A DNA stretch of 56,370 nt. Origin: an uncultured cyanobacterium (GTDB lineage Bacteria > Cyanobacteriota > Cyanobacteriia > PCC-6307 > Cyanobiaceae). Below are positions 27,857 to 50,435 of the stretch, piece by piece. A program made the position numbers and the translations under genes. The notes below the pieces were generated by a model. That model saw only the letters and a program-made list of their open reading frames with translations, was not told the origin of the DNA and made no database searches. Within the stretch, counting starts at the first letter, position 1, and each line of letters starts with the position of its first letter. The stretch spans positions 1 through 56,370 of the forward strand of contig CAIJRN010000078.1 of NCBI GenBank assembly GCA_903823115.1, in the 5' to 3' direction.

Positions 27857-29428
<1,572 letters not shown>

Positions 29429-32900: not shown

Positions 32901-32905
32901 TTGCG

Positions 32906-33913
32906 ATGACAAACTCTATCTCTGCCCCAAAAATTTCTGCAGTTGTCACGACTTACAATCGTGCCCACCTCCTAAAGAAGACTCTTATTAGCCTGGCTGG
33001 TCAAACTTTGGCGGATGAGGAGTATGAGGTTGTTGTGATCGACGATGGCTCGTCTGATAATACGAGCCAGATTGTGGCTGATCTGCAGGCTTTGGTTCAT
33101 GTCAATTATGTCTATCAGCCAAACTCTGGCCTTGCCTCGGCCAAAAATCATGGTCTTTTTTACAGTAAAAGTCCGATTGTTTTGTTCTTGGACGATGATG
33201 ATGTAGCCGACCCTGCCCTGCTTGAGCAGCATCTCCTGGCCCATAAAACTTTTCCGGATCCCAACTATGCCGTCTTAGGGCATACGAATCTTGCGGCCAA
33301 TCTTCGCGAAGATCCGCTGATGCAATTTGTCACCGGCGAAGGGGGCCACCTCTTTTCATACGAATATATTTCAGCTGCCCCACGGTTGGATTATTCCTAT
33401 TTTTGGGGAGGGCGTACGTCTTGCAAGCGAAAATATCTGCTTTCTCATGGTGTATTTAACCCCATATTCAAGTTTGGGTTTGAGGATATTGAGCTGGGTT
33501 TCAGGCTCAGATTGCATGGGTTGCATGTTGTCTATTGGCCGAAGGCGGTGAATACGATGATCCGCCATATATCCCTGCAGAGATTTTTGCAACGCTGTTT
33601 TCGTCAGGGTGAGTCGGGTTATCGCTTTATCTCTCTTTACCCTGAGGAACAAGAGCTCGCCGCTGGGTTGTCATTGGTTGATGCTGAGGCAGAGTGGCGC
33701 AAGCTGAGTTCTAATCATCCTGCTGTGATCCAGGCAGCCTTCCACTTGGATAGCATGGTCAGAATCCTGCAGCCTAATCAACTGCAAGATAGTGCCTACT
33801 ATCGAAATCTCCTCCATTTTGCTTATTCACGGGCATTCAGGGCGGAAACGATTCGTGGCTATATGGAGGCCCGAGATTCTTCACGGTTGCCATTAGCCGC
33901 CTCTCCTGTATGA
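32906..33913 (+). CDS. Glycosyltransferase family 2 protein
   Basis: A GT-A-fold inverting transferase of 335 residues. The nucleotide-binding start is ISAVVTTYNRAHLLKKTLIS. It is followed by YEVVVIDDGSSDNT, the metal-binding DDDD stretch in IVLFLDDDDVADPALL near 99-114, and FGFEDIELGFRLRLHG, with the catalytic ED motif near 195-198. ATG 32906 is preferred to TTG 32897. It overlaps the next GT2 gene by 4 bases. The acceptor is presumably a growing lipid-linked surface glycan; this is inferred from context. Confidence 0.88.
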   Translation: MTNSISAPKISAVVTTYNRAHLLKKTLISLAGQTLADEEYEVVVIDDGSSDNTSQIVADLQALVHVNYVYQPNSGLASAKNHGLFYSKSPIVLFLDDDDVADPALLEQHLLAHKTFPDPNYAVLGHTNLAANLREDPLMQFVTGEGGHLFSYEYISAAPRLDYSYFWGGRTSCKRKYLLSHGVFNPIFKFGFEDIELGFRLRLHGLHVVYWPKAVNTMIRHISLQRFLQRCFRQGESGYRFISLYPEEQELAAGLSLVDAEAEWRKLSSNHPAVIQAAFHLDSMVRILQPNQLQDSAYYRNLLHFAYSRAFRAETIRGYMEARDSSRLPLAASPV

Positions 33914-34815
33914 CGATTGAGGAGAATGTGGCTCTCGGCGGGCCCCCTTGGAGGCTTAGGGCCAATCAGGCCTATCAAGCTTTGCAGAATGTAGATGTAT
34001 CTGTCGTCATTACGCTATATAATTATGCAGGCTATATTGAGGAATGTTTTGAGAGCCTTGTGGCTTCAATTCAATTTGATGTTTCGATCTCTGTTGAGGT
34101 TGTCATCATTGATGACGCTTCGACCGATGATGGGGCTCTCGTCCTCTTGGCGTCCAGCCTCGCTCATCGGCAGATCCCGTTGCTACTTGTAAAGAGTCGT
34201 CATAATGCTGGCCTCAGTCACGCTCGCAATCTTGGTTTGAGATTGTCGCGAGGTTCTGCTGCTTTCATTCTGGATGCTGACAATACAGTGAAGCCTCCAT
34301 GTATCTCGCGTTTGTATCGCTGTCTTCGCGAGACAGGCGCCAATGCAGCTTACGGCCAAATTGAAAAGATTTCCGCTTTAGACGGGAGCATTGTTGGATT
34401 GGTGTCAAACCAGGCTTTTGATCTGGCTCGACTCTTGGCTGGCAACTATATAGATGCTATGGCCATGTTTTCTGTGGCGACGCTTTTTGAGGTGGGGCTC
34501 TATGACGTTGGCATGATTCATGGATGGGAGGATTATGATATTTGGTTGGCGTTTGGTTTTGCCGGAATGCAAGTTGAGCATGTCGATGAGGTTCTTGCTT
34601 GCTATCGTGTCCATGCTGATTCCATGTTGAATCGCCTGAATGAGCACGTTCCGAAGGTTGGTCGTTATCTCTATCTTAAGTATCAGCAACTGTTGCCTCA
34701 GCCTGCTGCCGATTCGTTGCTTTTCGGCGTTCCAGTAGCTCTGCTGCTTCAACCGGAGGTTTGTGTGCTTTCGCTGGATCCGGCTCCCTTGCCTGATGTT
34801 GGGACAGAGTCATGA
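33910..34815 (+). CDS. Glycosyltransferase family 2 protein
   Basis: A second GT2 enzyme (301 residues). Key parts are VSVVITLYNYAGYIEECFES near residues 30-49, VEVVIIDDASTDDGALVL, the donor/metal motif FILDADNTVKPP (about 118-129; D-A-D), and MIHGWEDYDIWLAF with the catalytic ED near 215. A C-terminal helix-rich part has no membrane segment. It follows the first GT2 gene with an ATGA overlap, so the four transferases 29551-34815 form one operon. Confidence 0.88.
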   Translation: MTIEENVALGGPPWRLRANQAYQALQNVDVSVVITLYNYAGYIEECFESLVASIQFDVSISVEVVIIDDASTDDGALVLLASSLAHRQIPLLLVKSRHNAGLSHARNLGLRLSRGSAAFILDADNTVKPPCISRLYRCLRETGANAAYGQIEKISALDGSIVGLVSNQAFDLARLLAGNYIDAMAMFSVATLFEVGLYDVGMIHGWEDYDIWLAFGFAGMQVEHVDEVLACYRVHADSMLNRLNEHVPKVGRYLYLKYQQLLPQPAADSLLFGVPVALLLQPEVCVLSLDPAPLPDVGTES

Positions 34816-36105: not shown

Positions 36106-36885
36106 ATGAAAGCTGTGATTCTCGCCGGTGGTCTAGGAACGCGCATCAGCGAGGAAACCCATTTGCGTCCGAAGCCGATGGTGGAGGTTGGCGGTATGCC
36201 GATTCTGTGGCATATACTTAAGACGTATTCGCATCATGGCATCAATGACTTTGTCGTCTGCTGTGGCTACAAGGGTTATATAATTAAGGAGTATTTTGCT
36301 AACTATTTTCTTCACAATAGCGACGTCACTTTTGATATGGTCGCCAACCAGATGCAAGTGCATGAGCGCAATGCTGAGCCCTGGAGGGTCACTCTGGTGG
36401 ATACGGGTGAGAACACCATGACAGGTGGTCGGCTGAAGCGGGTCGCTAAGTATCTCGATTCTGAAACGTTCTGTTTGACCTATGGTGACGGGGTGGCTGA
36501 CTTGGACATCACTGCTGTGATTGACTTTCACCGCAGCCACGGACGTCTGGCGACGGTCACGGCCGTACAGCCTCCTGGTCGCTACGGAAGTTTGCGCCTG
36601 GGTGTCGGCGGTGAAGCTGTTGAGGGCTTTGAGGAGAAGCCACCGGGCGAAGGGAACGGCAACTGGATCAACGCCGGCTTTTTTGTGCTCGAACCGGCCG
36701 TACTCGATCTTGTGGCCGGTGACGACACCACCTGGGAGTTTGAGCCCTTGAAGCAACTGGCCCGGCAAGGTCAACTCATGGCCTGGCGGCATCGCGGTTT
36801 CTGGCGAGCGATGGATACGCTGCGCGATCGCACCCAGTTGCAGGAACTCTGGTCCAGCGGAGCGGCGCCCTGGAGAGTCTGGTGA
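36106..36885 (+). CDS. rfbF: Glucose-1-phosphate cytidylyltransferase
   Basis: RfbF makes CDP-glucose from CTP and glucose-1-phosphate, the entry to CDP-3,6-dideoxyhexoses. The 259-residue protein has the nucleotidyltransferase signature AVILAGGLGTRISEETHLRP at the N terminus with KPMVEVGG. The RfbF-specific motifs are ILWHILKTYSHHGINDFVVC, CGYKGYIIKEYF, LTYGDGVADLD, GNWINAGFFVLEP and WRAMDTLRDR. The length matches the family. It starts a GC-richer block and is coupled to rfbG (GTG 36882 overlaps the stop). Confidence 0.96.
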   Translation: MKAVILAGGLGTRISEETHLRPKPMVEVGGMPILWHILKTYSHHGINDFVVCCGYKGYIIKEYFANYFLHNSDVTFDMVANQMQVHERNAEPWRVTLVDTGENTMTGGRLKRVAKYLDSETFCLTYGDGVADLDITAVIDFHRSHGRLATVTAVQPPGRYGSLRLGVGGEAVEGFEEKPPGEGNGNWINAGFFVLEPAVLDLVAGDDTTWEFEPLKQLARQGQLMAWRHRGFWRAMDTLRDRTQLQELWSSGAAPWRVW

Positions 36886-37994
36886 CCATGACTGACGCCG
36901 CCCCTGACCGCTCCTTCTGGCAAGGCCGAAGGGTCTTGTTAACGGGACACACAGGCTTCAAGGGCAGTTGGCTGGCGCTCTGGCTGATGCGTCTTGGGGC
37001 TGAGGTGGTCGGGGTCTCTCTCGATCCGCCCACGACGCCATCCCTGTGCGAGCAGCTGGGATTGGGCACTTCCGCCAGCCTGGATCCTCGGTCGATGGGG
37101 CAACTGGATGATCGACGTCTGGATCTGCTTGATCAGGCGGCCCTGGAGCGACTGGTCCGTCGGTTTCGCCCCCAGGTTGTGCTGCATCTTGCTGCCCAGT
37201 CGCTGGTGCGGGCCGGTTATCGCCAGCCTCTGGCCACCTGGAGCACCAATGTCATCGGCACGCTGCACCTTCTGGAGGCCCTTCGGCAGGCTCAGCAACC
37301 CTGTGTGGTCGTGGCGGTGACCACCGATAAGGTCTACGCCAACAGCGAGGGGGGAGTGCCGTTCCGGGAGGACGACCCCCTGGGCGGCCATGACCCCTAC
37401 AGCGCCAGCAAGGCGGCGATGGAGTTGGCTGTGGCCAGCTGGCGGCAGAGCTTCTGCGGCAATGAACCCCACCAGAATCCGGGATTGCGCCTGGTCACCG
37501 CTCGGGCGGGCAATGTAATTGGTGGTGGTGACTGGGGGCAGGAGCGGATCGTGCCTGATCTGATCCGGGCCCTGAAACGGGGAGAGGCGATTTCCGTACG
37601 CAATCCAGGCGCCGTTCGTCCCTGGCAGCACGTTCTCGATTGTCTGTCGGGTTATCTGCTGCTGGCGGAACGTGTCAGCCAGGATCCGCCGCAGGGCAGC
37701 AGTTTCAACTTCGGTCCGGCGCAGTCCGAAGAGCACAGCGTGGCGGCGTTGGTGCAGGAACTGCTGTCGCATTGGCCCGGGAGCTGGCAGTACTGTCCGG
37801 ATCCCCAGGCGGTACGCGAGAGCCACCATCTCGCCCTGGATGCGAGCCTGGCCCGTCAGCAATTGGACTGGCATTCGCGCTGGGGCTTCGCAGAGGCGGT
37901 GGCCCATACGGCCAGCTGGTATAGGCGCCAGCATGAAGGTGCGTCGGCCTTGGCCCTATGCCTCGAACAGATCGCCTGTTATGAAGAAGGCTGA
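36882..37994 (+). CDS. rfbG: CDP-glucose 4,6-dehydratase
   Basis: RfbG converts CDP-glucose to CDP-4-keto-6-deoxyglucose. It is an extended SDR of 370 residues. The NAD loop VLLTGHTGFKGSWLALWL is near the N terminus, followed by VVLHLAAQSLVRAGY and the active-site pair in DPYSASKAAMELAV (YxxxK). Family-specific motifs are AGNVIGGGDWGQERIVPDLI and RPWQHVLDCLSGYLLL. GTG 36882 has GGAG 6 bases upstream; ATG 36888 is a close alternative. Its 3' end overlaps rfbH by 14 bases. Confidence 0.96.
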   Translation: MTMTDAAPDRSFWQGRRVLLTGHTGFKGSWLALWLMRLGAEVVGVSLDPPTTPSLCEQLGLGTSASLDPRSMGQLDDRRLDLLDQAALERLVRRFRPQVVLHLAAQSLVRAGYRQPLATWSTNVIGTLHLLEALRQAQQPCVVVAVTTDKVYANSEGGVPFREDDPLGGHDPYSASKAAMELAVASWRQSFCGNEPHQNPGLRLVTARAGNVIGGGDWGQERIVPDLIRALKRGEAISVRNPGAVRPWQHVLDCLSGYLLLAERVSQDPPQGSSFNFGPAQSEEHSVAALVQELLSHWPGSWQYCPDPQAVRESHHLALDASLARQQLDWHSRWGFAEAVAHTASWYRRQHEGASALALCLEQIACYEEG

Positions 37995-39561
37995 TAGTGT
38001 CAAACCAGGGCATTCTCCGGTGAATCAATCGGTGGCTAACCAGCGGGAAGAGGCCGAGTCAGAGCAGTTGCGCACGGAGATTCTCCAGCTCAGCCGCCGT
38101 TATGCCGCATTGGTGCATCGCCAGCATCGGCCGGCCGATGACCCATTGCGGCAGCCCTGGAGCGGAGGGCCCATTCCTTATGCGGCACGGGTGTTCACGG
38201 AAGACGAGGTTGAGGCAGCGGTGTCCGCCACCCTCGATTTCTGGCTCACCCTCGGTGCGGAAGGGGAGGCCTTTGAACAGGAACTGGCGGCCTTCCTGGG
38301 GGTGCGCTCCAGTCTGCTGGTGAATTCCGGCTCTTCAGCCAACCTGATCGCCCTGAGCACGCTCGCCTCGCCGTTGATCGAGCCGGAAAGGCGTCTGCGG
38401 CCCGGTGACGAGGTGATCACCTGTGCGGCCGGTTTCCCCACCACGGTGGCACCGATCCTGCAAAACGGTTGTGTGCCGGTCTTTGTCGATGCCGATCCGG
38501 TTACGGCCAATCTCAAGGTGGATCAGCTGGAGCAGGCCTATAGCCCCGGCAAGACGAAGGCCGTGATGGTGGCCCATGCTCTCGGCAATCCGTTCGACAT
38601 CGCCGCGGTGCTGGCCTTCTGCCGCCGTCATGGACTCTGGTTGATCGAAGACAACTGTGATGCGCTCGGATCCAGCTATTCCATGCCACGGGCCATGGCG
38701 GTAGGGCTGGGAATTCGTGAGAACAGCCCTGGGCTCGATGAAGGGCCGGATCGGGTGGTGCGCTACACGGGCACTTGGGGAGATCTGAGCACCCAGAGTT
38801 TCTATCCCGCCCATCACATCACCACCGGCGAAGGTGGGGCGGTGAACGTCGTCTCCGGTGATGGACGCCTGCGCCGTATCGCCGAAAGCCTGCGGGACTG
38901 GGGGCGCGACTGCTGGTGTCCGAGCGGCAAGGACAACAGCTGTGGCAAGCGCTACGGCTGGCAACTGGGGGAGCTACCCGCTGGCTATGACCACAAATAT
39001 ATTTATTCACACTTCGGTTACAATCTCAAGCCTTTGGATCTACAGGCAGCGATCGGCAGGGTGCAACTGCGGCGGTTGAAGGGGTTTGGGGAGGCGCGTA
39101 GGCGCAATTGGGACACCCTTCGCCGGGGCCTTGCTGCTCACGATGACGTGCTTGATTTCAGCCTGCCCACCCATGCCACCGCCTGGGATCCGGAGCAGGG
39201 CTTTTCCTGGGATGTCACGGGCTGCCGGACCGAGTGCTCCTGGTTTGGCTTCAAGATTGCCGTCAAGCCTGGGGCCCCCTTCAGCCGCACCGATCTTGTC
39301 CGTGAGCTGGACCGCCATCAGATCGGCAATCGCATGCTGTTTGGCGGTAACCTCCTCCGCCAGCCTGCCTTTGTGCAGCTGCGGCAGGATCGGCCGGAAG
39401 CGCTGCGGATCGTGGGGCAGATGGTGGGGACTGATGAGATCATGAACAGCACGCTGTTTCTTGGTACCTATCCGGGCTTGACCCAGGACATGATTAATGC
39501 CGAAATCAAGGTTATTCTCCATTGCACAAGCAACGCCAAGCAGATGTCAACTGCCGTTTAA
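37981..39561 (+). CDS. rfbH: CDP-6-deoxy-D-xylo-4-hexulose-3-dehydrase (RfbH/AscC, E1)
   Basis: RfbH removes the C3 hydroxyl using PMP and a 2Fe-2S cluster, giving the 3,6-dideoxy intermediate. It has an aspartate-aminotransferase fold, but the usual PLP lysine is His, as expected: SFYPAHHITTGEGGA (H278). Cluster cysteines are seen in RDCWCPSGKDNSCGKRYGW (C311, C313, C321), and the PMP-binding Asp in WLIEDNCDALG. The protein is 526 residues against about 437 in Salmonella. The extra length is an N-terminal tail and an insert at about 235-262 (MAVGLGIRENSPGLDEGPDR). The reductase partner (RfbI/AscD, E3) is not in the window. A later GTG (38020) is possible as the start. Confidence 0.95.
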   Translation: MKKADSVKPGHSPVNQSVANQREEAESEQLRTEILQLSRRYAALVHRQHRPADDPLRQPWSGGPIPYAARVFTEDEVEAAVSATLDFWLTLGAEGEAFEQELAAFLGVRSSLLVNSGSSANLIALSTLASPLIEPERRLRPGDEVITCAAGFPTTVAPILQNGCVPVFVDADPVTANLKVDQLEQAYSPGKTKAVMVAHALGNPFDIAAVLAFCRRHGLWLIEDNCDALGSSYSMPRAMAVGLGIRENSPGLDEGPDRVVRYTGTWGDLSTQSFYPAHHITTGEGGAVNVVSGDGRLRRIAESLRDWGRDCWCPSGKDNSCGKRYGWQLGELPAGYDHKYIYSHFGYNLKPLDLQAAIGRVQLRRLKGFGEARRRNWDTLRRGLAAHDDVLDFSLPTHATAWDPEQGFSWDVTGCRTECSWFGFKIAVKPGAPFSRTDLVRELDRHQIGNRMLFGGNLLRQPAFVQLRQDRPEALRIVGQMVGTDEIMNSTLFLGTYPGLTQDMINAEIKVILHCTSNAKQMSTAV

Positions 39562-39613: not shown

Positions 39614-41437
39614 ATGCGAGTTGCTGACTACATTGCCAACCGTCTTGCTGAGGCAGGTCTTTCGGAAGTGTTTATGGTTACTGGAGGTGCAGCGATGCAT
39701 CTCAATGATGCCTTTGGCAGAGAGAAGCGACTGCATGTTCGCCCGTTGCACCACGAGCAGAGTTGTGCCATGGCTGCGGATGCCTATGCCCGCGTCAGCC
39801 GTAAGCCAGCCATTGTCAATGTGACGGCGGGACCGGGAGGTATCAATGCTCTCAATGGAGTCTTTGGCGCCTACGTCGACTCCATTCCGATGCTGATTAT
39901 TTCGGGTCAAGCCAAAAGAGAAACCCTCGTTTCATCGTATGCGGATTCGGGCTTGCGCCAACTCGGGGACCAGGAGGTCGATATCATTTCCATGGTCAAG
40001 AAGATCACCAAACATGCAATACTGCTGACTGACCCTAACGAGATCAGAGAACAGCTCGAATTAGCTCTTTTCCTGACAACAGATGGTCGTCATGGACCCT
40101 GCTGGCTCGACATCCCCATTGACGTGCAGGCCAGCGAAATCGAACCGGCTGCGCTCCGCCCATTCCGGCTAGTAATTTCTCCGATCGATGATACTACGAT
40201 CGTCAAGAGTCAAGTCTCTTGCCTGATTGAAAGGCTCCAACAGTCCCATCGTCCGCTTCTTTACGCCGGCAGTGGTATCCGCTCATCTGGTTGCGAGGAA
40301 CGCTTGTTGAGGTTTGCCGAGATTTATGGGCTTCCCATTGTCACGGCTTGGAATAACAACGATTTAATCTGGGATACGCATCCTCTCTATGCCGGTAGGC
40401 CCGGAACAGTCGGCAACCGTGCTGGTAACTTTGCTGTCCAGTGTTGTGACCTACTTCTGGTCCTGGGTTGTCGCCTCAATATCCGACTTGTTTCCTACAA
40501 TTGGAAGGTTTTTGCCGATCGTGCCTGGATCTGCCATGTGGACATTGATCAGCACGAACTCGACAAGCCAACCCTCAATCAAGACCTCAAGATCCAGGCA
40601 GACTTAAATTTTTTCTTTGATCATCTTGAGCCACTCGCCAGCAGCCAACTCAAGCCACAACTAGCGACCAAAACCTGGGCCCAGTGGTCCGCGTGGACCA
40701 AGGATATGCTCGATCGCTTTCCAGTGATTGACTGCGAAAAGATTTTATCAGTGAGCCCAAATTCACCTGTAAACCCCTATCATTTTATCAAAAGTTTCTT
40801 CGCCCACCTCGCTGAAGGGGAGATCATCACCTTCGCCGATGGCACCGCTTGCGTAGCGGGCTTCCAAGCTGCTGAAATCAAGAAGGGGCAGCGACTTTTC
40901 CATAACTCTGGTTGCGCCTCAATGGGTTTTGATCTACCGGCCGCAATCGGCGCACACTACGCAAGCAGACGTCGGGTATTTTGTGTTGCGGGCGACGGAT
41001 CCTTGATGATGAATATCCAAGAGCTTGCCATTGTGGCCGGCAATAACTTGCCGATCATTCTCTTCATTCTTGACAATCGCGGATACCACTCTATCCGTCA
41101 GACGCAAGCTAACTTTTTTCCAGGCAATCCTGTTGGCTGTGGTGAAGAAAGTGCCCTTCCCTTCCCAGATTTTGAAAGCGTGGGCACTGGTTTCGGGATT
41201 CCAAGTCTGACCTTAAGGACCAACCGGGAGGTGAGCGAAAGAATCCCAGAAATCGTGAGCAGCAGTGGCCCGCTGATCGTGGTCGTAAAGCTTGATTTGA
41301 CATGTGAGTTTTCTCCGAAGGTCACAAGTAAACGCCTCGAAGATGGAACCATGGTGACGGCCAGACTAGAAGACATGAGTCCTTTTTTGCCACGTGATGA
41401 ATTCGAAGAGATCATGTCATCCGCCTCGGCAATATGA
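39614..41437 (+). CDS. ThDP-dependent enzyme of the acetolactate synthase superfamily
   Basis: A 607-residue thiamine-diphosphate enzyme with PYR, central and PP domains. The catalytic Glu is E48 (LHHEQSCAMAADAYAR), and the ThDP/Mg motif runs from G460-D-G to N488 (GDGSLMMNIQEL ... LDNRG). The RQLGDQEVDIISMVKKITKH segment is typical of the forms found in surface-polysaccharide clusters rather than of the anabolic IlvB, and no small ilvN-like subunit is present. Possible roles are acyloin-type addition of a two-carbon unit from pyruvate to a keto sugar, as YerE does in yersiniose synthesis, or C-C cleavage as in IolD. It heads the AT-rich six-gene block and is coupled to the SDR by ATGA. Confidence 0.87.
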   Translation: MRVADYIANRLAEAGLSEVFMVTGGAAMHLNDAFGREKRLHVRPLHHEQSCAMAADAYARVSRKPAIVNVTAGPGGINALNGVFGAYVDSIPMLIISGQAKRETLVSSYADSGLRQLGDQEVDIISMVKKITKHAILLTDPNEIREQLELALFLTTDGRHGPCWLDIPIDVQASEIEPAALRPFRLVISPIDDTTIVKSQVSCLIERLQQSHRPLLYAGSGIRSSGCEERLLRFAEIYGLPIVTAWNNNDLIWDTHPLYAGRPGTVGNRAGNFAVQCCDLLLVLGCRLNIRLVSYNWKVFADRAWICHVDIDQHELDKPTLNQDLKIQADLNFFFDHLEPLASSQLKPQLATKTWAQWSAWTKDMLDRFPVIDCEKILSVSPNSPVNPYHFIKSFFAHLAEGEIITFADGTACVAGFQAAEIKKGQRLFHNSGCASMGFDLPAAIGAHYASRRRVFCVAGDGSLMMNIQELAIVAGNNLPIILFILDNRGYHSIRQTQANFFPGNPVGCGEESALPFPDFESVGTGFGIPSLTLRTNREVSERIPEIVSSSGPLIVVVKLDLTCEFSPKVTSKRLEDGTMVTARLEDMSPFLPRDEFEEIMSSASAI

Positions 41438-42120
41438 CTGCCAACAAAATCCTCATCATCGGCTCTGGCAGCGACATGTTGCAGCCACTGATCAAGCAGT
41501 GTCCCTCACATCAGCTGGAATTGCTCGGGCTGGGGCGTTCAGATTGGGATCTCAAGGATCTCCAGCCAAAGCCCGAGCTGCTTGACTCGATTTGTGCCTT
41601 CAAGCCGACTCATCTGATCTTCGCTGCTGGGCAGAATATTCTGACCGATATTCATGCTTATCCTGATGACGTGATGGCAGCAATCCAAAACCACATGACC
41701 GTTAACTGCTTCTCATTTGTCTCTATAGTTCTCGCCTTAATGAACAGGCTTGCCACGCCACTGCGTACTGTGCATGCACTTTCATCTCTCTATGGAATCT
41801 ATGGGCGTCGAGGTAGGATCCCCTACAGTCTCTCCAAACATGCGCTCGAAGGTGCAATCAAGTGCTTAGCAATTGAATTTCCTCAAACACAGTTCATCGG
41901 CTACAGGCCTGGTTTTTTCGACACTAAACTCACCGGTCAAAACATTCCCGACTCAGCGAGGCACCTCCTAGAATCCCGTGTACCACTGCATCGATTTGGC
42001 CAAATGGAAGAGCTTTCCTCGATAATCCTTGCCAATATCCTAAACCCTGTTCCTTACTTCACCGGTATTTGCCTAACTGTTGATGGGGCCATGACGGCTG
42101 GGGGTATTTTCGATCAATGA
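41434..42120 (+). CDS. Short-chain dehydrogenase/reductase
   Basis: A classical SDR of 228 residues. The N-terminal strand and Gly-rich loop are LIIGSGSDMLQPL, an unusual GSGSDML rather than TGxxxGxG. The rest is typical: FAAGQNI, VHALSSLYGIYGRRG with the catalytic Ser, and YSLSKHALEGAIKC (YxxxK). The end GICLTVDGAMTAGGIFDQ matches SDRs that reduce keto groups. In this block it could reduce the product of the ThDP enzyme, as YerF does after YerE, or act on a cyclitol ketone. It is translationally coupled on both sides. Confidence 0.85.
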   Translation: MTANKILIIGSGSDMLQPLIKQCPSHQLELLGLGRSDWDLKDLQPKPELLDSICAFKPTHLIFAAGQNILTDIHAYPDDVMAAIQNHMTVNCFSFVSIVLALMNRLATPLRTVHALSSLYGIYGRRGRIPYSLSKHALEGAIKCLAIEFPQTQFIGYRPGFFDTKLTGQNIPDSARHLLESRVPLHRFGQMEELSSIILANILNPVPYFTGICLTVDGAMTAGGIFDQ

Positions 42121-43298
42121 CCACCATTGCACCCACCGCCTTCGAGGCCAACACATTCACCATCAATGGATCGGTTCTCAGCTGGTCGCAACTCGAGCCA
42201 CCTTTCAGTGTCTCTTCCTTTCCGCACCCGTATTCTGTCAGCATTATTGAAGCCATCGCTGATTATCAACAAATCATAGCCACGGCTGACTTTGTCATCA
42301 TCGATCAAAATATTGCGCACATTTACGGAATCGGCGAGCGGCGAGCAGGGACCACTTTTCTTGTCATCCCTAGCGAGGAAAATAAAACTCTCGATACAGT
42401 ATCTGCCATCATTGATCAGATGATCGACTTGGAAATATCCAAAGGCTCAAAAGTGGTTGCCATTGGCGGGGGGATCGTCCAAGACCTCAGTGCCTGTGCT
42501 TGTGCGCTCTTCCGAAGGGGTCAGCCATTCACCTACATGCCAACGACAACACTCGGCCAGCTAGACTCCTGCGTTGGTGCAAAGTGCGCTGTAAATACAG
42601 CAAAGGCAAAGAATATACTTGGTTTGTTCAGTGCGCCAAGCGAGGTTTTTATTCCCATCTTTCTGATTAAGACAATGCCACTCTTGGATCACCGAGCTGG
42701 CCTTGCCGAAATGCTCAGGCTTTGCTTGACGGCTTCCATTTCCGCCGTCCAGATCTATAGCAACCTGCTTCCAAGTATCGCCCAGCCATCGACACTAGAT
42801 CTCTCTGCCTATGCAGAGGCTGTCTCAGTTTCTCTATCCATCAAGAAGTCAGTTGTTGATTTTGATGAGTATGAAAGAGACGTTCGTCGCTCCATGAACT
42901 ATGGCCATACATTTGGCCATGCTATTGAAAAGCTCTCAAATTATCAGGTTCCCCACGGTCTTGGTGTTTTGCTCGGAATGCATATTGCCAATGTCTATTC
43001 AACTGCGATCGGCGTCATGGCGCCCTCATGCTTGGCCGAACTCACCATAATCTTTCAAAAGACGGCCCTTGAAATTCGTTTGCCTTTCTTCCAGGCTAGT
43101 GACTTAGTTCCCGAAAAGATTATTTCACAGTTTCGCTATGATAAAAAGGGAGATGGCGCAAGCGTTCCTTTGATACTTATTGAAAGGCCGGGAATGATGA
43201 TCTTCCGCCAATACTTGTTTTCCCAGTCTCACGAGGTCCTGTCCCAGTCTATAAGATTGGGCATTGATGAGTTTTCTGCATGGATCAATCAGCCGTAA
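42117..43298 (+). CDS. Sugar-phosphate cyclase, 3-dehydroquinate synthase-like
   Basis: A 393-residue member of the DHQS/EEVS/DOIS superfamily, which uses NAD and a divalent metal to close a phosphorylated keto sugar into a six-membered carbocycle. The NAD loop is VVAIGGGIVQDLS (113-125). Metal ligands are E198 (RAGLAEML), H264 (NYGHTFGHAIE) and H280 (VPHGLG). K156 and K166 lie in GAKCAVNTAKAKNILG. It differs from true AroB at key positions: EVIKYG becomes EMLRLC (R201), GGKTGVN becomes GAKCAVN, and HGEAV becomes HGLGV. These changes argue for a substrate other than DAHP. The housekeeping aroB is presumably elsewhere. ATGA overlap with the SDR. Confidence 0.88.
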   Translation: MTTIAPTAFEANTFTINGSVLSWSQLEPPFSVSSFPHPYSVSIIEAIADYQQIIATADFVIIDQNIAHIYGIGERRAGTTFLVIPSEENKTLDTVSAIIDQMIDLEISKGSKVVAIGGGIVQDLSACACALFRRGQPFTYMPTTTLGQLDSCVGAKCAVNTAKAKNILGLFSAPSEVFIPIFLIKTMPLLDHRAGLAEMLRLCLTASISAVQIYSNLLPSIAQPSTLDLSAYAEAVSVSLSIKKSVVDFDEYERDVRRSMNYGHTFGHAIEKLSNYQVPHGLGVLLGMHIANVYSTAIGVMAPSCLAELTIIFQKTALEIRLPFFQASDLVPEKIISQFRYDKKGDGASVPLILIERPGMMIFRQYLFSQSHEVLSQSIRLGIDEFSAWINQP

Positions 43299-44590
43299 TC
43301 CGTTTGTTTATTGATTGGGGATTCACGCGTCTGAAGCTGTGGATTTGCGATGGAGAAGGCACCCTTCTCTGCGAGCAGAGTACATATACGGCCACATTGG
43401 CTAAGCGCCCTGCCTTTTATGACAGCAGAGATTTAGATCAAGTCTGTATGATTATCGGTAGAGCTCTTCATTCTTGTCTGCCCGCCAAGATCATTCATGT
43501 ATACACAAGTAGTCAGATGCATGCCTTGGCTGGCTCCCTGAATGGTCATTCGGATTTCGTATCAACTTGGAATGATCTGCCAATACAACCCGCCACCGCG
43601 GATTCTGTTCTTGTAAAGGATGGAATACCAGTCCTCAACTCAATGCCCGTCAACAAGGTCATCCATGACGATCAGGCTCTGCTGCTGAGTTCTTCCTCTT
43701 GCTCTAGGAGCCAAGAAAGTCTTAACGCAATCACATCTCTTTCATCCCCGATTGGCTTGCTGTTGCACCGCATCTTCCAGGTCCCAGTTCCCTGTTCACG
43801 CTCTTGGTGGCAGTCTACGTGTTTGCCAAGCGACTATCTGGCCCTGGGGAGCCTTGATCAAACCTGTTATCTCAGCGAATCTCCACTTTATATTCAACCG
43901 AGCTATGCTCGCAGGTTACTTGGCATCGATAGTTTGATTGTCATCTATCCTGAAGTCGGCGATCTGCAGGCCTTGACCTACTCAAGTGTCCGCCAGTGCC
44001 AAGTGATGCTGAATCTGGGTACTGGATCCCAAGTGATTTTGCCTTCATTGTCAGTATCTGAGGCGATGCCTTATTTTCGCTATTACATTCACGCACTGCC
44101 AGCCATTCCAACCCTATCGCATGTTCCTTGTGGGCGCCTGCTGGCTGACTACGTCACAGCTAAAAATATTTCCTTTTCCATATTGCGTCAAGCCATGGAC
44201 GAGTTAACGCCAGCCCATCTTGTTTCCAATTGTCAGAGAATAAGTAAGACTTTGCTTTGCTTCTCAGGGTTTTCATTCCATGATTGCAATTATCACCAGC
44301 ATCCGACAACGACGCTTAGCGAGCTTGCCAGCCTAAACCCTGATGTTTTCTTGTCTCTTTGGGTGTTCCAGTACTATCGCATCATTGATCATTTTCTATT
44401 GCCGCTTCTCGGTACGACGGACTTTGTAACGATTAATATTGTCGGTGACCTTGGTGGCTTAGCCGATAGCTTTTCTGCCTTGCTCTTTGCCCTCCTGCCG
44501 CCCCAATTTCAGCTGTGCAGGCTAGCAGCCCTAACTTTGCCCTGCTCTCTGCTGCAATTTCATGTTGACAGTGCTCCTGCCGCTTGCTGA
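43280..44590 (+). CDS. FGGY-like carbohydrate kinase
   Basis: A 436-residue ASKHA-fold kinase. The phosphate-1 loop LFIDWGFTRLKLWICDGEG is at residues 9-27, the second phosphate loop VMLNLGTGSQV at about 247-257, and a C-terminal adenosine element VTINIVGDLGGLADSF near 395-410. This layout fits the FGGY family (gluconate, ribulose, sedoheptulose kinases), but the sequence is divergent and Ser/Cys/Leu-rich. The substrate is unknown; a ketose or ulosonate feeding the adjacent cyclase is the contextual guess. Its start overlaps the cyclase gene by 19 bases. Confidence 0.7.
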   Translation: MDQSAVIRLFIDWGFTRLKLWICDGEGTLLCEQSTYTATLAKRPAFYDSRDLDQVCMIIGRALHSCLPAKIIHVYTSSQMHALAGSLNGHSDFVSTWNDLPIQPATADSVLVKDGIPVLNSMPVNKVIHDDQALLLSSSSCSRSQESLNAITSLSSPIGLLLHRIFQVPVPCSRSWWQSTCLPSDYLALGSLDQTCYLSESPLYIQPSYARRLLGIDSLIVIYPEVGDLQALTYSSVRQCQVMLNLGTGSQVILPSLSVSEAMPYFRYYIHALPAIPTLSHVPCGRLLADYVTAKNISFSILRQAMDELTPAHLVSNCQRISKTLLCFSGFSFHDCNYHQHPTTTLSELASLNPDVFLSLWVFQYYRIIDHFLLPLLGTTDFVTINIVGDLGGLADSFSALLFALLPPQFQLCRLAALTLPCSLLQFHVDSAPAAC

Positions 44591-44656
44591 TTGATCTATG
44601 TAGAGCTGGCCTATACAGCATTTCCTGATAGAATCTACCCAAAGTTTAAGGCAACC

Positions 44657-45769
44657 ATGGCCTCACTCATTTCCCAGGCTGATCGCCTCGTTTTCGAGAA
44701 TCTTTTTGTTCTTGAGCTCGCCAATAACCACTGGGGGAATTTGGATAGAGGTCTTAAGATCATACGCGACTTCGCCACGGTTGCTCGTGTAAATTCTGTT
44801 CGAGTTGCGATTAAGCTTCAGTTCCGAGATGTCGACTCTTTTGTGCATCCTGAATTCAAGGGTACGGACGAAATGCGTTATATCAAAAAGACGGAAGCAG
44901 CCAAGCTTAACCTTGAAGAGTTTAAGGATATGATAAATGAAATTATTAAATGTGGCTGTATTCCTATGGCTACGCCCTTCGACGAGCAGTCTGTGGATCT
45001 TTGCTATAGTTTTGATTTGCCCATTGTCAAGGTGGCGAGTTCTGATATCGCCACATGGCCTCTTCTTGAGAGGATTGCCAAGCTACGCAAACCGGTAATC
45101 ATTTCAACGGGTGGCGCGAAGGATAAGGTGATAGATGATTGTGTGAAGTTCTTTGAAAACCGTAGCATACCACTGGCTATTAACCATTGCGTGTCTCTGT
45201 ACCCTTCGGAGGACTCCGAGCTTGAACTCAATCAGATCGACTATCTCAGGGCTCGTTACCCTGGCCATGTGATCGGCTTTTCGACCCATGAGAAGACCGA
45301 CTGGGTCAATTCAATGCTGATTAGTTATGCCAAAGGCGCCCGCTCCTGGGAGCGTCATGTTGACATTGACATGGATGGCATTCCCGTCTCGCCTTACTGC
45401 TCACTGCCCTATCAGATTGATCAATGGTTCAAGGCTTTCCAGAAGGCTGCAGAAATGTGCGGCGGCTCTGCAGACTCAAGGCGCAATGTCACCGAAAGGG
45501 AGCGGCGCTATCTCGATGAACTTGTTCGCGGAGTATATGCTCGTAAAAATCTTGAACCTGGCTATGTCTTTTCCTCCGACATATTCGATGACGACTTCTA
45601 CCTTGCGGTTCCTCTTCGTAAAGGTCAGCTCTCCTGTCGTGAGGTGGTCAACGGTAAGCGTCTTACTTGTGCAATCGCCGCTGACGAAAAACTCACAATC
45701 GACCATGTCGATGGACCGTACCGCGAGAATGAAGCCCTCCGGCAAACAATCTTGGACCGTGGGTTCTAA
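44657..45769 (+). CDS. NeuB-family PEP-condensing synthase with C-terminal SAF domain
   Basis: A TIM-barrel synthase of 370 residues related to N-acetylneuraminate/legionaminate synthases, which join PEP to an aldose to give a 3-deoxy-2-keto acid. Motifs: VLELANNHWGNLDRGLKII (18-36), IKLQF, IPMATPFDE (102-110), KVASSDIATWPLLE, VIISTGG and INHCVSLYPS. The metal-site His residues appear kept: H211 (GFSTHEKTDW) and H234 (WERHVDID). The NeuB acceptor loop EKHF...PGPDH is ERHV...IPVSPY here, so the acceptor is probably not ManNAc. A SAF/antifreeze-like domain (ARKNLEPGYVFSSDIF) fills the C terminus. ATG 44657 follows AAGG; TTG 44591 is the longer alternative. Confidence 0.87.
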   Translation: MASLISQADRLVFENLFVLELANNHWGNLDRGLKIIRDFATVARVNSVRVAIKLQFRDVDSFVHPEFKGTDEMRYIKKTEAAKLNLEEFKDMINEIIKCGCIPMATPFDEQSVDLCYSFDLPIVKVASSDIATWPLLERIAKLRKPVIISTGGAKDKVIDDCVKFFENRSIPLAINHCVSLYPSEDSELELNQIDYLRARYPGHVIGFSTHEKTDWVNSMLISYAKGARSWERHVDIDMDGIPVSPYCSLPYQIDQWFKAFQKAAEMCGGSADSRRNVTERERRYLDELVRGVYARKNLEPGYVFSSDIFDDDFYLAVPLRKGQLSCREVVNGKRLTCAIAADEKLTIDHVDGPYRENEALRQTILDRGF

Positions 45770-45775
45770 TCCCTA

Positions 45776-46411
45776 ATGCGGACTGTTGTCTGTTTTGATC
45801 TGGACGGTACTCTTTTTGACAGCTCTGCTGGAATCTATGCCTCGCTGCAACAAGCCTGTCTTCAGCAGGGTGTGACACCGCCAGAGTATGAAGCTCTCGT
45901 CTCCTGTATCGGTCCACCGCTGCGCGACTATCTGCCTTTCCTTCTGAACGTATCTGAGAAGGAATGCCAGAGCATCCTGGCTGCCTTCCGAACCCACCAC
46001 GACACCGAGGGCTACCTAGCCTATCGACTTTATCCCGATGTCGAACCAGTTCTGGCTCAACTAGCAGATACCGGCCACCCTCTCTATGCCGCCACCAACA
46101 AGCCGTTTGCCGTCTCCTGTGCAGCGTTGCGACACTTTGGTCTGCTGGAGAGATTCCTGAATGTCTATTGTCCCGATGGTTCCTCTCTTGCATCCGGCCT
46201 TCAAGATCACAATAAGCGTACGGTCCTCACGCAAATCAAACTCTCCTTCGATCCTGCTGAGGTCGTCTATGTGGGTGATACTGCATCAGACCAAGACGCT
46301 GCAACGCAGGCCAATGTCGGGTTCATCCACGCAGGCTATGGCTATGGCTGCGGGATTCAGGCGGAACGGCGTATTGACAACCTGAGTGGTCTGTTGGCTC
46401 TGATCCGCTGA
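45776..46411 (+). CDS. HAD-superfamily phosphatase (Gph/PGP-like)
   Basis: A 211-residue haloacid-dehalogenase hydrolase. Motif I FDLDGTLFDSS (7-17) contains the nucleophile D8 and the acid/base D10. An alpha-helical cap follows. Motif II is ATNKP, and motif IV is VVYVGDTASDQDAATQANV. This subclass removes phosphate from small sugar phosphates. As the last gene of the ThDP-SDR-cyclase-kinase-NeuB block, 6 bases downstream of the synthase, it may dephosphorylate the pathway product. Its TGA overlaps the start of the next gene (TGATG). Confidence 0.9.
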   Translation: MRTVVCFDLDGTLFDSSAGIYASLQQACLQQGVTPPEYEALVSCIGPPLRDYLPFLLNVSEKECQSILAAFRTHHDTEGYLAYRLYPDVEPVLAQLADTGHPLYAATNKPFAVSCAALRHFGLLERFLNVYCPDGSSLASGLQDHNKRTVLTQIKLSFDPAEVVYVGDTASDQDAATQANVGFIHAGYGYGCGIQAERRIDNLSGLLALIR

Positions 46412-47361
46412 TGGACGATCTCTGCTGTGGGCAAGGCCTTTTGGTCGTCACCGGTGCCACGGGCTGGTTCGGCCGCACGGCCTTGCACGAACTGCAGCGA
46501 TTGCTGGGCCCGGAGACCTTCTCGCGCCGGGTGCGCGCCTTTGCCAATCGCTCCAGCACCATCGCTTCCACCGGCTTCGTCGATGGAGTGGTGCGGGCAA
46601 TTCCCATCGCTCCCTTGGCTGAGCTACCCGAGATCGCTTCACTCGAACCAATCGAAGCCCTGCTGCACACGGCCTTCCTCACGCGGGAACATGTCGAGCG
46701 GGTGGGCGTGGAGGCGTACATCAATGTCAATCGCGGCATCACCGGCCTGGTCTGTCGTTCGCTGGAGTCTTCCCTTTCTGCCCGTGCCGTCGTGATCTCC
46801 TCTGGTGCGGCTGCGGCCCTGGATGCTGTTGCCTGCCTTGAGGAGTACTTGCACTCCGATCCCTACGGTGTTCTCAAGTCGGAGGAAGAGCGCCGGCTCA
46901 GCGCGATTGCAGACACTCTGGTGCTCCGTGCCTATGCGGTATCGGGGCGCTTCATGCGTGATCCCGAGCAGTTCGCCCTCGGTGATTTCCTGCTCCGTGC
47001 TTTGGAAGGGCTACCGATCGTGATCAAGGCGCCGATGCCGGTAATCCGTGGCTACGGCCATGCTGGCAACATGGTCAACCTTGCCTTTCGCTGGCTGTGG
47101 AGTGATCGGCTTCCCCCTACCCATCCCATCGCTGCGGTGAGCCATGAGGTGGAACTCCTGGAGCTGGCCAGTCTGATTTCTTCTCTCTACGATTTGCCGC
47201 CGACCGCAACTGACATCGATCCCAGCCTTTCCCCGAATCGCTACAGCGCTGATCCATCTACCTATCTAAATATGCTGCATTTGCTGGGGATCGTGCCCCG
47301 ATCCGTGGAGGAGCAGATCTTCGATACTGTCTGCGGCCTGCAGGTCTCACAGGTCTCGTGA
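46411..47361 (+). CDS. NAD(P)-dependent epimerase/reductase (extended SDR)
   Basis: A 316-residue extended SDR. The cofactor loop is VVTGATGWFGRTALHEL (12-28), with VVISSGAAAALDAV carrying the Ser and SDPYGVLKSEEERR the Tyr152-x3-Lys156 pair. The later part (VIRGYGHAGNMVNLAFRWL, AVSHEVELLELASLI) resembles 4-ketohexose reductases and epimerases. It is a candidate for the reduction of a CDP-4-keto-dideoxyhexose. GC content rises again at this gene compared with the preceding block. It converges with gtrA and overlaps its end by 15 bases. Confidence 0.82.
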   Translation: MDDLCCGQGLLVVTGATGWFGRTALHELQRLLGPETFSRRVRAFANRSSTIASTGFVDGVVRAIPIAPLAELPEIASLEPIEALLHTAFLTREHVERVGVEAYINVNRGITGLVCRSLESSLSARAVVISSGAAAALDAVACLEEYLHSDPYGVLKSEEERRLSAIADTLVLRAYAVSGRFMRDPEQFALGDFLLRALEGLPIVIKAPMPVIRGYGHAGNMVNLAFRWLWSDRLPPTHPIAAVSHEVELLELASLISSLYDLPPTATDIDPSLSPNRYSADPSTYLNMLHLLGIVPRSVEEQIFDTVCGLQVSQVS

Positions 47362-49448: not shown

Positions 49449-50435
49449 ATGGCGGACGTGCTGGTGCCCAATCACATAGCAATCTGCATACCTTGCTATA
49501 ATGAAATTGCAAATATTGGCGCTCTTTACACGCGCCTGGCTGCTGTCCTGGAGCGCTTTCCGGATGACCGTTTCTCGATTGTATTCGCCGACAACAATTC
49601 AACTGATGGTACACCGGCGATCATCGAGGGGCTGATGCAGCACGATTCGCGGGTTGGCATGATCGAGAACGTCAATAACTTCGGCTTCGTCCGCTCATCA
49701 GCCAACGCCCTGCTGGCCCCCGATGCCGATGCCAATTTATTCCTGATGTCCGACCTTCAGGATCCGCCTGAGCTGATCCCTGAGCTCATAGTGCGCTGGC
49801 GCCAGGGTCGCAGTCAGGTCGTCTTTGCTGTGCGCCGTTCAAGCAGGGAGAATGCCCTGCTTTTCATCTGCAAAAAGATCTATTACGCCCTGCTTTCAAT
49901 TCTCTCGGATTATCCGATGGTCCGTGACACGACCGGCTTCGGTATCTATGATCGAAGCGTCATCCTTGCCCTGCGCCAGTGCAGTGATTCCTATCCGTTC
50001 GTCAAGGGTCTGGTGTGTGCCATTGGTTTCGCCTGGGAAACCGTTTCCTACACCAGTGGCAACCGCGCAGGCGGCCGCAGCCATGCATCGTTCGGCTTTC
50101 TGATCGACTTTGGCATCCTCGGGATTGTCACCCTATCGCGCAAGCCTATGCGCATCATCACCTACGCCGGCATCGGGCTCGGGGCGTTTGCCCTGTTCCT
50201 CTCAGCTGTCGTGCTGATCAGCAAGCTGCTCTTTTGGTCGATGTTCCAGTTCGGCTTGGCAATGTTGGCTGTGTCCGGGCTGTTCTTTCTTGGAATTGCC
50301 CTGACGGCCCTAGGGATTATCGGCGAATATGTCGGCTTTCTCAATCAACGCTCTTTGCGATTGCCTCTAGTAGTGGAAAAACGTCGTCTTAATGTGCCGC
50401 AGGTGGCAACCAGCAGCTGGCCGGACCGGAGGTAA
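49449..50435 (+). CDS. GtrB-like polyprenyl-phosphate glycosyltransferase (GT2)
   Basis: A 328-residue GT2 enzyme that transfers a sugar from NDP-sugar to undecaprenyl phosphate. The catalytic domain shows IAICIPCYNEIANIGALYTR, IVFADNNSTDGTPAIIE, LFLMSDLQDPPELIPEL and VFAVRRSSREN. Two C-terminal transmembrane helices (about 236-258 and 268-298) anchor it. It is a natural partner of GtrA and GT87 encoded divergently. A TATAGT hexamer at 49434-49439 could be a -10 element but leaves almost no leader. Confidence 0.9.
   Translation: MADVLVPNHIAICIPCYNEIANIGALYTRLAAVLERFPDDRFSIVFADNNSTDGTPAIIEGLMQHDSRVGMIENVNNFGFVRSSANALLAPDADANLFLMSDLQDPPELIPELIVRWRQGRSQVVFAVRRSSRENALLFICKKIYYALLSILSDYPMVRDTTGFGIYDRSVILALRQCSDSYPFVKGLVCAIGFAWETVSYTSGNRAGGRSHASFGFLIDFGILGIVTLSRKPMRIITYAGIGLGAFALFLSAVVLISKLLFWSMFQFGLAMLAVSGLFFLGIALTALGIIGEYVGFLNQRSLRLPLVVEKRRLNVPQVATSSWPDRR

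Follow-up and report, generated by a model that had tools for sequence, protein, structure and literature searches.

A ten-gene cyanobacterial run with an optional kinase-cyclase-SDR cassette as a candidate operon for a long-chain branched surface sugar

A run of ten genes in the window (the whole 56,370-nucleotide stretch of cyanobacterial DNA analysed here) is best read as a surface-sugar operon. I propose, with a probability of roughly 0.4, that it makes a long-chain, C4-branched 3,6-dideoxyhexose for a surface glycan. It may be, though this too is tentative, that a DHQS-fold enzyme has moved from aromatic biosynthesis to glycan assembly. Aided by a kinase and a reductase of its own, this enzyme would rebuild a ulosonic acid made by a NeuB-like synthase, either by phosphate loss without a ring, which would be a new end-deoxygenation, or by formation of a carbocycle, before a YerE-like ThDP enzyme joins the product to a CDP-keto-sugar; most of this line would be phage-borne.

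A first-pass annotation had described six of the genes, which are genes 4 to 9 of the run. All six ORFs were confirmed at their coordinates, as was the tight packing with gaps below 70 bases; neighbours overlap by 4, 4, and 19 bases or are separated by 66 bases (from the kinase to the ATG at 44657, the largest gap) and 6 bases. The six genes themselves stand, while the rfbF, rfbG, and rfbH genes upstream and an epimerase-type SDR gene downstream had been missed. The ten genes are as follows.

36106..36885, + strand: rfbF, glucose-1-phosphate cytidylyltransferase (TIGR02623, 452.6 bits, cut-off 300.25)
36882..37994, + strand: rfbG, CDP-glucose 4,6-dehydratase (TIGR02622, 449.9 bits, cut-off 278.45)
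37981..39561, + strand: rfbH, CDP-4-keto-6-deoxyglucose 3-dehydrase (NF011936, 618 bits, cut-off 423)
39614..41437, + strand: YerE-like ThDP enzyme, proposed C-C branching step (Pfam TPP N/M/C; HHEQ and GDG motifs)
41434..42120, + strand: cassette SDR, classical (adh_short_C2, 41.3 bits; YSLSK motif)
42117..43298, + strand: cassette DHQS-type sugar-phosphate cyclase/phospholyase (TIGR04425, 261.7 bits, under the cut-off of 400)
43280..44590, + strand: cassette FGGY-type kinase, divergent (relatives, invariant motifs, and model; adjoins the cyclase)
44657..45769, + strand: NeuB/SpsE-like PEP-condensing synthase (Pfam NeuB, 128 bits, cut-off 22.1)
45776..46411, + strand: HAD phosphatase (HAD_2, 79.7 bits)
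46411..47361, + strand: epimerase-type SDR that may reduce the ketone after coupling (Epimerase, 25.9 bits)

The start of rfbH is uncertain, the ATG at 37981 being one candidate; the protein contains the His motif SFYPAHH. The NeuB-like ORF spans 44591-45769 and likely starts at the ATG at 44657. The epimerase-type SDR gene overlaps the HAD gene by one base, and its relatives adjoin HAD in four other loci (L008-L011). The families that had been read from motifs were mostly right. The ThDP, SDR, DHQ_synthase, NeuB, and HAD proteins score above Pfam cut-offs, and the kinase could be placed by other means (below).

RfbF, RfbG, and RfbH, assigned to their families by the NCBIfam cut-offs, are predicted to supply CDP-4-keto-3,6-dideoxyhexose. 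Their reaction is established, and this sugar nucleotide is the acceptor of YerE-type branching enzymes. With these acceptor genes directly upstream, a YerE-like branching role on the CDP-keto-sugar is the best reading of the ThDP enzyme. Its best solved match is 8rph (353.9 bits; the next 252.8), which is JanthE (PMC12188165), and it scores 308.1 bits of 738 and 300.2 of 538.35 against the acetolactate synthase equivalogs, below both cut-offs. Passages of PMC12247030 describe a CDG motif in JanthE and known YerE-like enzymes whose 2-keto-acid donors are long and hydroxylated. The CDP-4-keto-3,6-dideoxyhexose genes and the YerE-like ThDP gene are shared with the C4-branched pathways of yersiniose, erwiniose, and caryophyllose (YerE, ErwE, MMAR_2332, JanthE). 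Unlike in those pathways, a NeuB-like synthase and a kinase-cyclase-SDR cassette are the proposed source of the donor here. NeuB is not mentioned in the main text of either PMC12247030 or PMC12188165, nor is dehydroquinate in that of PMC12247030. A term look-up in three M. marinum LOS papers returned no dehydroquinate, and no aldolase in PMC5706390 and PMC13354803. No paper on this gene set was found in the open-licence library that was searched.

The NeuB-like protein has Pfam NeuB in common with the NeuB, PseI, and SpsE synthases but lies far under the equivalog cut-offs, with 107.6 bits against the sialic-acid synthase equivalog (cut-off 399.65). Among solved proteins, its family profile matches best 3g8r (277.4 bits), named by its depositors a probable spore coat polysaccharide biosynthesis protein E, while NeuB 1xuu scores 93 bits. 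These scores speak against an ordinary sialic-acid synthase, in line with the first-pass annotation.

Is the gene set conserved elsewhere? I compared the neighbourhoods of 142 loci with a NeuB-like gene, 90 bacterial and 52 viral. A ThDP gene is present in 133 of them (82/90 bacterial, 51/52 viral), and the two genes are linked across phyla and viral contigs. The cyclase and the kinase follow an all-or-none pattern: each occurs in 35 loci, both occur in the same 35, and they are adjacent in every one (35/35), while the SDR adjoins the cyclase in 33. Thus, the NeuB-like and ThDP genes form the core, and the cyclase and kinase come as an optional pair, missing from 107 of the 142 loci, some of which end at a contig edge. 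The pair was found in three bacterial phyla and in 27 of the 52 viral contigs, two of the viral contigs carrying phage hallmark genes. These counts bear out the co-occurrence that had been suggested for the set, and chance assembly was rejected on account of them and of the invariable cyclase-kinase adjacency. The HAD gene is outside the cassette, with profile matches in 43/90 bacterial loci and 0/52 viral loci; a different HAD-like gene of about 100 residues precedes NeuB in 14 viral loci. Among viral loci flanked by 6 kb at both ends, acceptor-side and reductase genes occur regardless of the cassette: a dehydratase is present in 18/21 loci with the cassette and 14/16 without it, and a reductase, only weakly RmlD-like (30-34 bits, cut-off 224), in 20/21 and 14/16. 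The NeuB-like query had no plasmid match at 1e-40, and one viral NeuB-like protein had none among 50,697 phage records at 1e-30; cyclase matches among the phage records reach about 28-38% identity and no higher. The family of an Afipia locus has matches in 2 of 198 genomes, one of them the Afipia centre itself.

The distribution of the cassette was overlaid on trees of 134 NeuB-like and 121 ThDP sequences, kept from 143 loci (window included) after identical and short rows were dropped. The main viral clade (L117-L158) holds 42 loci and 32 rows common to both trees, 18 with the cassette and 14 without it. In this clade, the cassette tracks the ThDP tree rather than the NeuB tree: its presence needs 1 change on the former (shuffled mean 10.7, 0/500 shuffles as low) and 8 on the latter (shuffled mean 10.8, 30/500 as low). 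When the full set of 134 NeuB rows is taken, cassette presence is also clustered (22 changes against a shuffled mean of 28.9, 0/500 as low), so that independence from NeuB is clear only within the main viral clade and in the bacteria. The bacterial ThDP proteins cluster by cassette weakly (5 changes; 9/500 and 3/500 as low in two analyses). The coupling of the ThDP and cassette histories can stem from linkage, since the genes are neighbours in most viral loci. In a descriptive scan of ThDP positions, the best viral position (JanthE V121) fails to separate the bacterial proteins. Chain position 428 nearly separates the latter, with H3, T3, and L1 in those with the cassette and S61, W6, H1, T1, G1, and one gap in those without it.

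The cassette cyclases form one clade with a support of 1.0 that excludes all 32 references, so the window cyclase falls outside AroB, as had been suspected; it scores 224.6 bits against the AroB NCBIfam model (cut-off 305). Three of the 33 tree rows are the same gene (of genome G407; two of them partial), and residue counts refer to 31 distinct cyclases. Taking a list of 15 AroB-type active-site positions, with the A. nidulans numbering and the roles that I assume for them, 14 are kept in the window cyclase and in all 31. The exception is K197, which is R in 10 (window included) and K in 21. K250, E260, R264, N268, and H275 are invariant in the 31 and in 26 AroB-type references. R264, which corresponds to R257 of the cyclase and is presumably the residue that holds the carboxylate, is altered together with N268 in two DOIS and four other, cyanobacterial, cyclase-family references, two of which match best the chains 5tpr and 4p53, which I take to be DDGS and EEVS. 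DOIS, EEVS, and DDGS thus belong to the same sugar-phosphate cyclase superfamily but have R264 and N268 replaced, whereas both are kept in 31/31 cassette cyclases. With the AroB-type residues kept, R264 and N268 included, the substrate should be DAHP-like, which lends support to the earlier idea that a PEP synthase, a kinase, and a cyclase repeat the logic of DAHP; a carbocyclic product is possible. The active-site residues are against an S7P or glucose-6-phosphate cyclase. Ordinary AroB was likewise rejected: the cassette cyclases share its family and a near-complete active site but are a separate clade, and contig C83 of the genome carries another DHQ_synthase gene, presumably that of its AroB. 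The best NCBIfam model for the cassette cyclases scored singly is TIGR04425, an AroB-related putative sugar phosphate phospholyase (cyclizing), which matches 9/9 aligned cassette cyclases. The scores of the window (261.7 bits), L005 (300.5), L022 (291.7), and L153 (291.2) are all below its cut-off of 400. Since this related model is already in NCBI, the cyclase idea has a partial precedent.

No Pfam or NCBIfam family matches the window kinase, and phmmer found no PDB match for it at E 1. Its assignment to FGGY rests on the FGGY_N matches of 7/9 aligned cassette kinases, on 23 invariant columns in their alignment with GDxQ and TGSQ among them, and on the PDB matches of its predicted model. The model is of modest confidence (pLDDT 65, pTM 0.70). 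The best 50 of its 115 PDB matches (E <=0.001) are all FGGY-kind sugar or glycerol kinases, with TM-scores of 0.40-0.49 on the query and a best E of 8e-9. Of 385 other genomes of the phylum, one had a kinase match at E 1e-3, a rarity due to fast divergence.

In the favoured route, the NeuB-like enzyme would condense PEP with an aldehyde into a 3-deoxy-2-ulosonic acid, which the cassette would rebuild with the carboxylate still present. The kinase would phosphorylate the far end, the DHQS-type enzyme would carry out oxidation, phosphate elimination, and reduction, and the cassette SDR would reduce the resulting ketone. The ThDP enzyme would then decarboxylate the cassette product and add it to C4 of the CDP-sugar, and the extended SDR would reduce the ketone after coupling. 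The outcome of the DHQS-type step is the weakest point. Since a 2-keto acid has to remain for the ThDP enzyme, a chain left open and ending in CH3 is favoured, which would lead to a caryophyllose-type C12 sugar. The near-complete AroB-like site speaks for a ring and against the open chain. The final stage of the DHQS reaction is considered spontaneous, and I know of no DHQS-fold enzyme that halts before ring closure.

The ring may instead be made first. The phosphorylated NeuB-like product would be cyclised to a dehydroquinate-like acid, reduced by the SDR, and attached to the sugar in some other way, while the ThDP enzyme uses another donor or takes the ring ketone as its acceptor. Ring closure by DHQS is established chemistry, passages of PMC12247030 have YerE-like enzymes accepting cyclic ketones, and both the AroB-like site and the SDR next to the cyclase suit this order. 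Yet a dehydroquinate-like acid offers the ThDP enzyme no 2-keto acid, although the cassette matches the history of that enzyme exactly in the main viral clade, and viral loci have the acceptor-side genes as often when the cassette is absent as when it is present; I regard this order as possible but unlikely. Less likely still is that coupling precedes the cassette. The ThDP enzyme would first link the NeuB-like product and the CDP-sugar, after which the kinase would phosphorylate the end of the chain and the cyclase would form a cyclohexane at the coupled ketone, so that the sugar bears a carbocyclic branch. By chemical reasoning the coupled chain would be patterned like C2-C7 of DAHP, and the gene order NeuB-ThDP-SDR-cyclase-kinase, seen in 24/27 viral cassette loci and in L065, agrees with it. 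However, R264 and K250 are kept though the carboxylate would be lost, and the extra reductase persists in 20 of the 21 cassette-bearing viral loci though ring closure would use up the presumed ketone.

The self-contained six-gene route to a new carbocyclic sugar, HAD included, that the first-pass annotation had proposed is very improbable. All six genes are contiguous in the window, L008, and L009, but most NeuB-like and ThDP pairs lack the cassette, no viral locus has the HAD profile, and rfbF, rfbG, and rfbH precede the block. I give slightly less credit still to a juxtaposition of two ordinary pathways, one in which rfbF/G/H and the ThDP enzyme make a yersiniose-like sugar and one that leads to an unrelated NeuB product. 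Each family has known members of such kinds, but the NeuB-like and ThDP genes travel jointly across phyla and viral contigs and the cassette covaries with the latter. A cassette-made acceptor replacing the CDP-sugar was rejected, as RfbH-like genes are present in viral loci both with and without the cassette.

For the origin of the long chain in higher branched sugars, such as caryophyllose and the Rhodopseudomonas O-antigen sugar, the portions of the literature examined offer no named answer. In the favoured route, the source of the donor 2-keto acid would be the NeuB-like synthase, an optional cassette would alter the donor, and the long-chain question would be reducible to four small enzymes. 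Relatives with and without the cassette but with closely related NeuB-like enzymes provide a natural experiment. Cyanobium Morenito 9A2 has a ThDP enzyme without the cassette. The occurrence of the same cassette in distant bacteria and viral contigs indicates that it is probably a real route to unusual surface sugars, and the viral copies suggest that phages carry their own route to such sugars.

The six ORFs for a ThDP enzyme, an SDR, a DHQS-type cyclase, an FGGY-type kinase, a NeuB-like synthase and an HAD protein lie where the first-pass annotation placed them and are packed as it described, as an ORF reading of the window confirmed. The block is contiguous, but it is not the complete unit that it was taken for: it occupies the fourth to ninth places in a run of ten genes with the order rfbF, rfbG, rfbH, ThDP, SDR, cyclase, kinase, NeuB-like, HAD and second SDR. 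Since glycosyltransferase genes flank the run on both sides, this is a surface-glycan region.

29551-32163, glycosyltransferase upstream of the run
32897-34815, glycosyltransferase upstream of the run
36106-36885, rfbF, above the NCBIfam cut-off
36882-37994, rfbG, above the NCBIfam cut-off
end at 39561, rfbH, above the NCBIfam cut-off
end at 47361, second SDR, last gene of the run
49449-50435, glycosyltransferase downstream of the run

The product of RfbF, RfbG and RfbH is CDP-3,6-dideoxy-4-keto-glucose, described as the acceptor that YerE uses (PMC12247030). The genome measures 3.42 Mb, and the window is its contig 78. The closest named relatives of its NeuB-like protein belong to Prochlorococcus and Cyanobium, so the source is probably a cyanobacterium of Prochlorococcaceae type. 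A thiamine biosynthesis gene, thiC (27947-29428), lies near this ThDP-dependent pathway, probably by coincidence.

How common is the SDR-cyclase-kinase set, hereafter the cassette? When the species-genome collection was scanned once with the NeuB-like pair, 249 relatives were obtained, the best 80 of which (57-77% identity) come from Cyanobacteria, Proteobacteria, Bacteroidota, Planctomycetota, Verrucomicrobiota, Acidobacteriota, Myxococcota, Chloroflexota and others. A kinase search gave one weak match among 385 other phylum genomes, pointing to genome G407 of a distant lineage, where rfbF, an SDR gene, a dehydrogenase-like gene (by eye), rfbH, the NeuB-like gene (57% identical to the window protein), SDR, cyclase, kinase and ThDP genes stand in a row. 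Among these 81 loci (the best 80 of 249 plus G407), ThDP was found in 74, rfbH in 51, rfbF in 48 and HAD in 36, while single-sequence searches found the cyclase in eight and the kinase in seven; absences are upper bounds because many loci end at contig ends. The eighth kinase, in locus L023, was recovered by eye and with a profile. In the window and these eight loci, which represent Cyanobacteriota (G407 included), Pseudomonadota and Planctomycetota, the cassette is contiguous and its order identical. Locus L057 at first showed no ThDP gene within 10 kb, and one was found about 10 kb upstream of the NeuB-like gene, beside an extended SDR; thus, all nine have a ThDP gene. The cassette is rare: a cyclase profile at 1e-85 matched only 2 of 398 Pseudomonadota genomes, one being the centre genome.

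Some bacterial loci have further features. An Afipia MAG (L023:773-10593) has rfbF, rfbG and the cassette, and rfbH was not found in this stretch, which would leave a 3-OH. Rhodopseudomonas palustris is described as having a C4-branched sugar with a 3-O-methyl group (PMC9912281). An extended SDR of about 350 residues (e.g., L046:2601-3680 and L210:2352-3380), a candidate YerF-like reductase, occurs in 48 of 82 bacterial loci lacking the cassette and in 4 of 8 having it (L005, L023, L055 and L065), as well as in L210. Loci L103-L106 (genomes G046, G068, G106 and G203) carry a second NeuB subfamily that scores near 310 bits with the profile; as its open frames run to 510-543 residues, it may be fused to a further domain.

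A scan of IMG/VR revealed 52 contigs with a NeuB-like gene (L107-L158; e.g., L154:9992-15374, L145:9296-14700 and L137:7247-16131). By profile search, ThDP was found in 51, RfbH-like in 47, and SDR, cyclase and kinase in 27 each, while rfbF was not found in the 52. This count includes near-identical or identical contigs (L136-L138, L145-L147, L130/L131 and L141/L143). Of the 27 contigs with the cassette, 24 show the order NeuB-ThDP-SDR-cyclase-kinase, where neighbouring genes mostly overlap or lie a few bases apart. RfbH of L153 and L112 scores above the family cut-off; most viral copies have the His motif, and in about a dozen lower-scoring relatives a search for it gave no hit. Neighbouring genes include a 4,6-dehydratase-like one (in L153, 292.9 bits to dTDP-glucose 4,6-dehydratase; cut-off 365) and an extended SDR that is only weakly RmlD-like (30-34 bits; cut-off 224). 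A HAD-like ORF of 97-107 residues directly precedes NeuB in 14 of the 52 loci, seven with and seven without the cassette (L122:9691-9999; also L130, L148 and L152); the one scanned weakly resembles the capsule phosphatase EcbF/BcbF (26.2 bits; cut-off 162). Phage hallmark genes were seen in L154 (major head protein) and in L145 (UvsX and a DnaB-like helicase). Genes for a clamp loader, ribonucleotide reductase or PhoH in L130, L142, L150, L152 and L122 fit T4-like phages, though they are not proof alone. Three other L154 proteins and single ones of L131 and L132 had no PHROG match, and a viral NeuB-like protein had no match at 1e-30 among 50,697 isolated-phage records. L107-L116, closer in look to the bacterial loci, may be prophage or host DNA.

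In the 142 loci (90 bacterial and 52 viral, window not counted), the cyclase and the kinase each occur in 35, always together and always adjacent; SDR and cyclase are adjacent in 33 of the 35 (exceptions, L117 and L119). Cyclase and kinase are therefore either both present or both absent in these loci. The window-type HAD was found by profile in 0 of the 52 viral loci.

In a FastTree analysis with 26 AroB-type sequences, two DOIS and four other relatives, the cassette cyclases formed one clade (support 1.0) without any reference inside. At 14 of 15 positions (A. nidulans numbering), the residue of AroB is conserved in all 31 cassette cyclases (each gene counted once): R130, D146, K152, N162, E194, K250, E260, R264, N268, H271, H275, H287, D355 and K356. 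The fifteenth, position 197, carries K in 21 of them and R in the other 10, including the window cyclase. In contrast, residue 264 is G/A in the two DOIS and S, D or C in the four other relatives, and residue 268 is E in the former and A or D in the latter. R264 presumably holds the carboxylate. As the AroB-type residues are kept, the substrate would be a DAHP-like phosphorylated 3-deoxy-2-ulosonate, as the NeuB-like enzyme and the kinase would supply. Of the four other relatives, L192 and L193 best match 5tpr (DDGS) and then 4p53 (EEVS), and L191 best matches AroB chains. A phospholyase related to AroB but outside it was already suspected, as NCBI family TIGR04425 shows; four singly scored cassette cyclases fall under the cut-off of this family.

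Two clade members lie outside the pathway; thus, the cyclase clade is wider than this system. One (L211:9941-11047; 393.6 bits) is a second such gene in the Coxiellaceae MAG of L055, where it might serve as AroB; its neighbour is cysteine desulfurase-like by eye. The other is in an SDR-cyclase pair (L212:9143-10940; cyclase, 304.8 bits) with GDP-sugar-type genes nearby (by eye), from the second of the two matching Pseudomonadota genomes. A NeuB-like gene was not found there, and the contig stops soon after the cyclase.

The window ThDP enzyme scores far under the listed NCBIfam cut-offs for acetolactate synthase. Among solved proteins it matches 8rph best (353.9 bits; runner-up, 252.8), the YerE-like enzyme JanthE, whose CDG motif (PMC12188165) is visible in the alignment. 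The window enzyme has GDG. The related ErwE is reported to prefer functionalised donors longer than C4 and to join a hydroxy 2-keto acid to CDP-4-keto-3,6-dideoxyglucose (PMC12247030).

The NeuB-like product may thus be made first and then be reworked by the kinase, cyclase and SDR; the ThDP enzyme would couple it to C4 of the CDP-sugar, and reduction would follow. Readings in which the cyclase forms a ring have real weight because its active site is so AroB-like. However, ring closure on C2 would remove the 2-keto acid that the ThDP enzyme needs. If the cyclase instead went no further than phosphate elimination, reduction by the SDR would leave a 3-deoxy ulosonate ending in CH3. The chain of caryophyllose has such a CH3 end, and CH2 at its second carbon. 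Joining a C7 acid of this kind to a 3,6-dideoxyhexose would build the caryophyllose skeleton; this C12 sugar bears a hydroxylated chain of six carbons at C4 (PMC7821131). The fit is suggestive, not a test.

Which partner does the cassette follow? Changes of the cassette label were counted on trees against 500 shuffles. In the viral clade L117-L158 (32 rows shared by the two trees, of which 18 have the cassette and 14 do not), there was one change on the ThDP tree (shuffled mean 10.7, minimum 5) and eight on the NeuB tree (mean 10.8; 30/500 as low). In bacteria (78 rows, seven with the cassette), there were five on ThDP (3/500) and six on NeuB (95/500), and in a fuller bacterial tree, five (9/500) and nine (500/500), respectively. 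Over the whole set, the label is clustered on NeuB too (134 rows; 22 changes, mean 28.9, 0/500), but far less than on ThDP (121 rows; 10 changes, mean 26.2, 0/500). Among the cyanobacteria, the NeuB-like proteins of the window and of Cyanobium Morenito 9A2, a genome without the cassette, are sisters, while the two ThDP enzymes fall on deep branches opposite each other. ThDP positions separating the two viral groups include JanthE V121, described as a docking position (PMC12188165; chain number one higher), and chain positions 428, 430 and 432, which directly precede the M-G-F/Y motif; position 428 nearly splits the bacterial groups as well. Viral loci that have the cassette and those that lack it carry acceptor-side genes and the extra reductase equally often. 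Linkage of neighbouring genes could be behind part of the tree pattern. Since the ThDP tree follows the cassette more closely than the NeuB tree does, the cassette seems to make more difference to what reaches the ThDP enzyme than to what reaches the NeuB-like enzyme.
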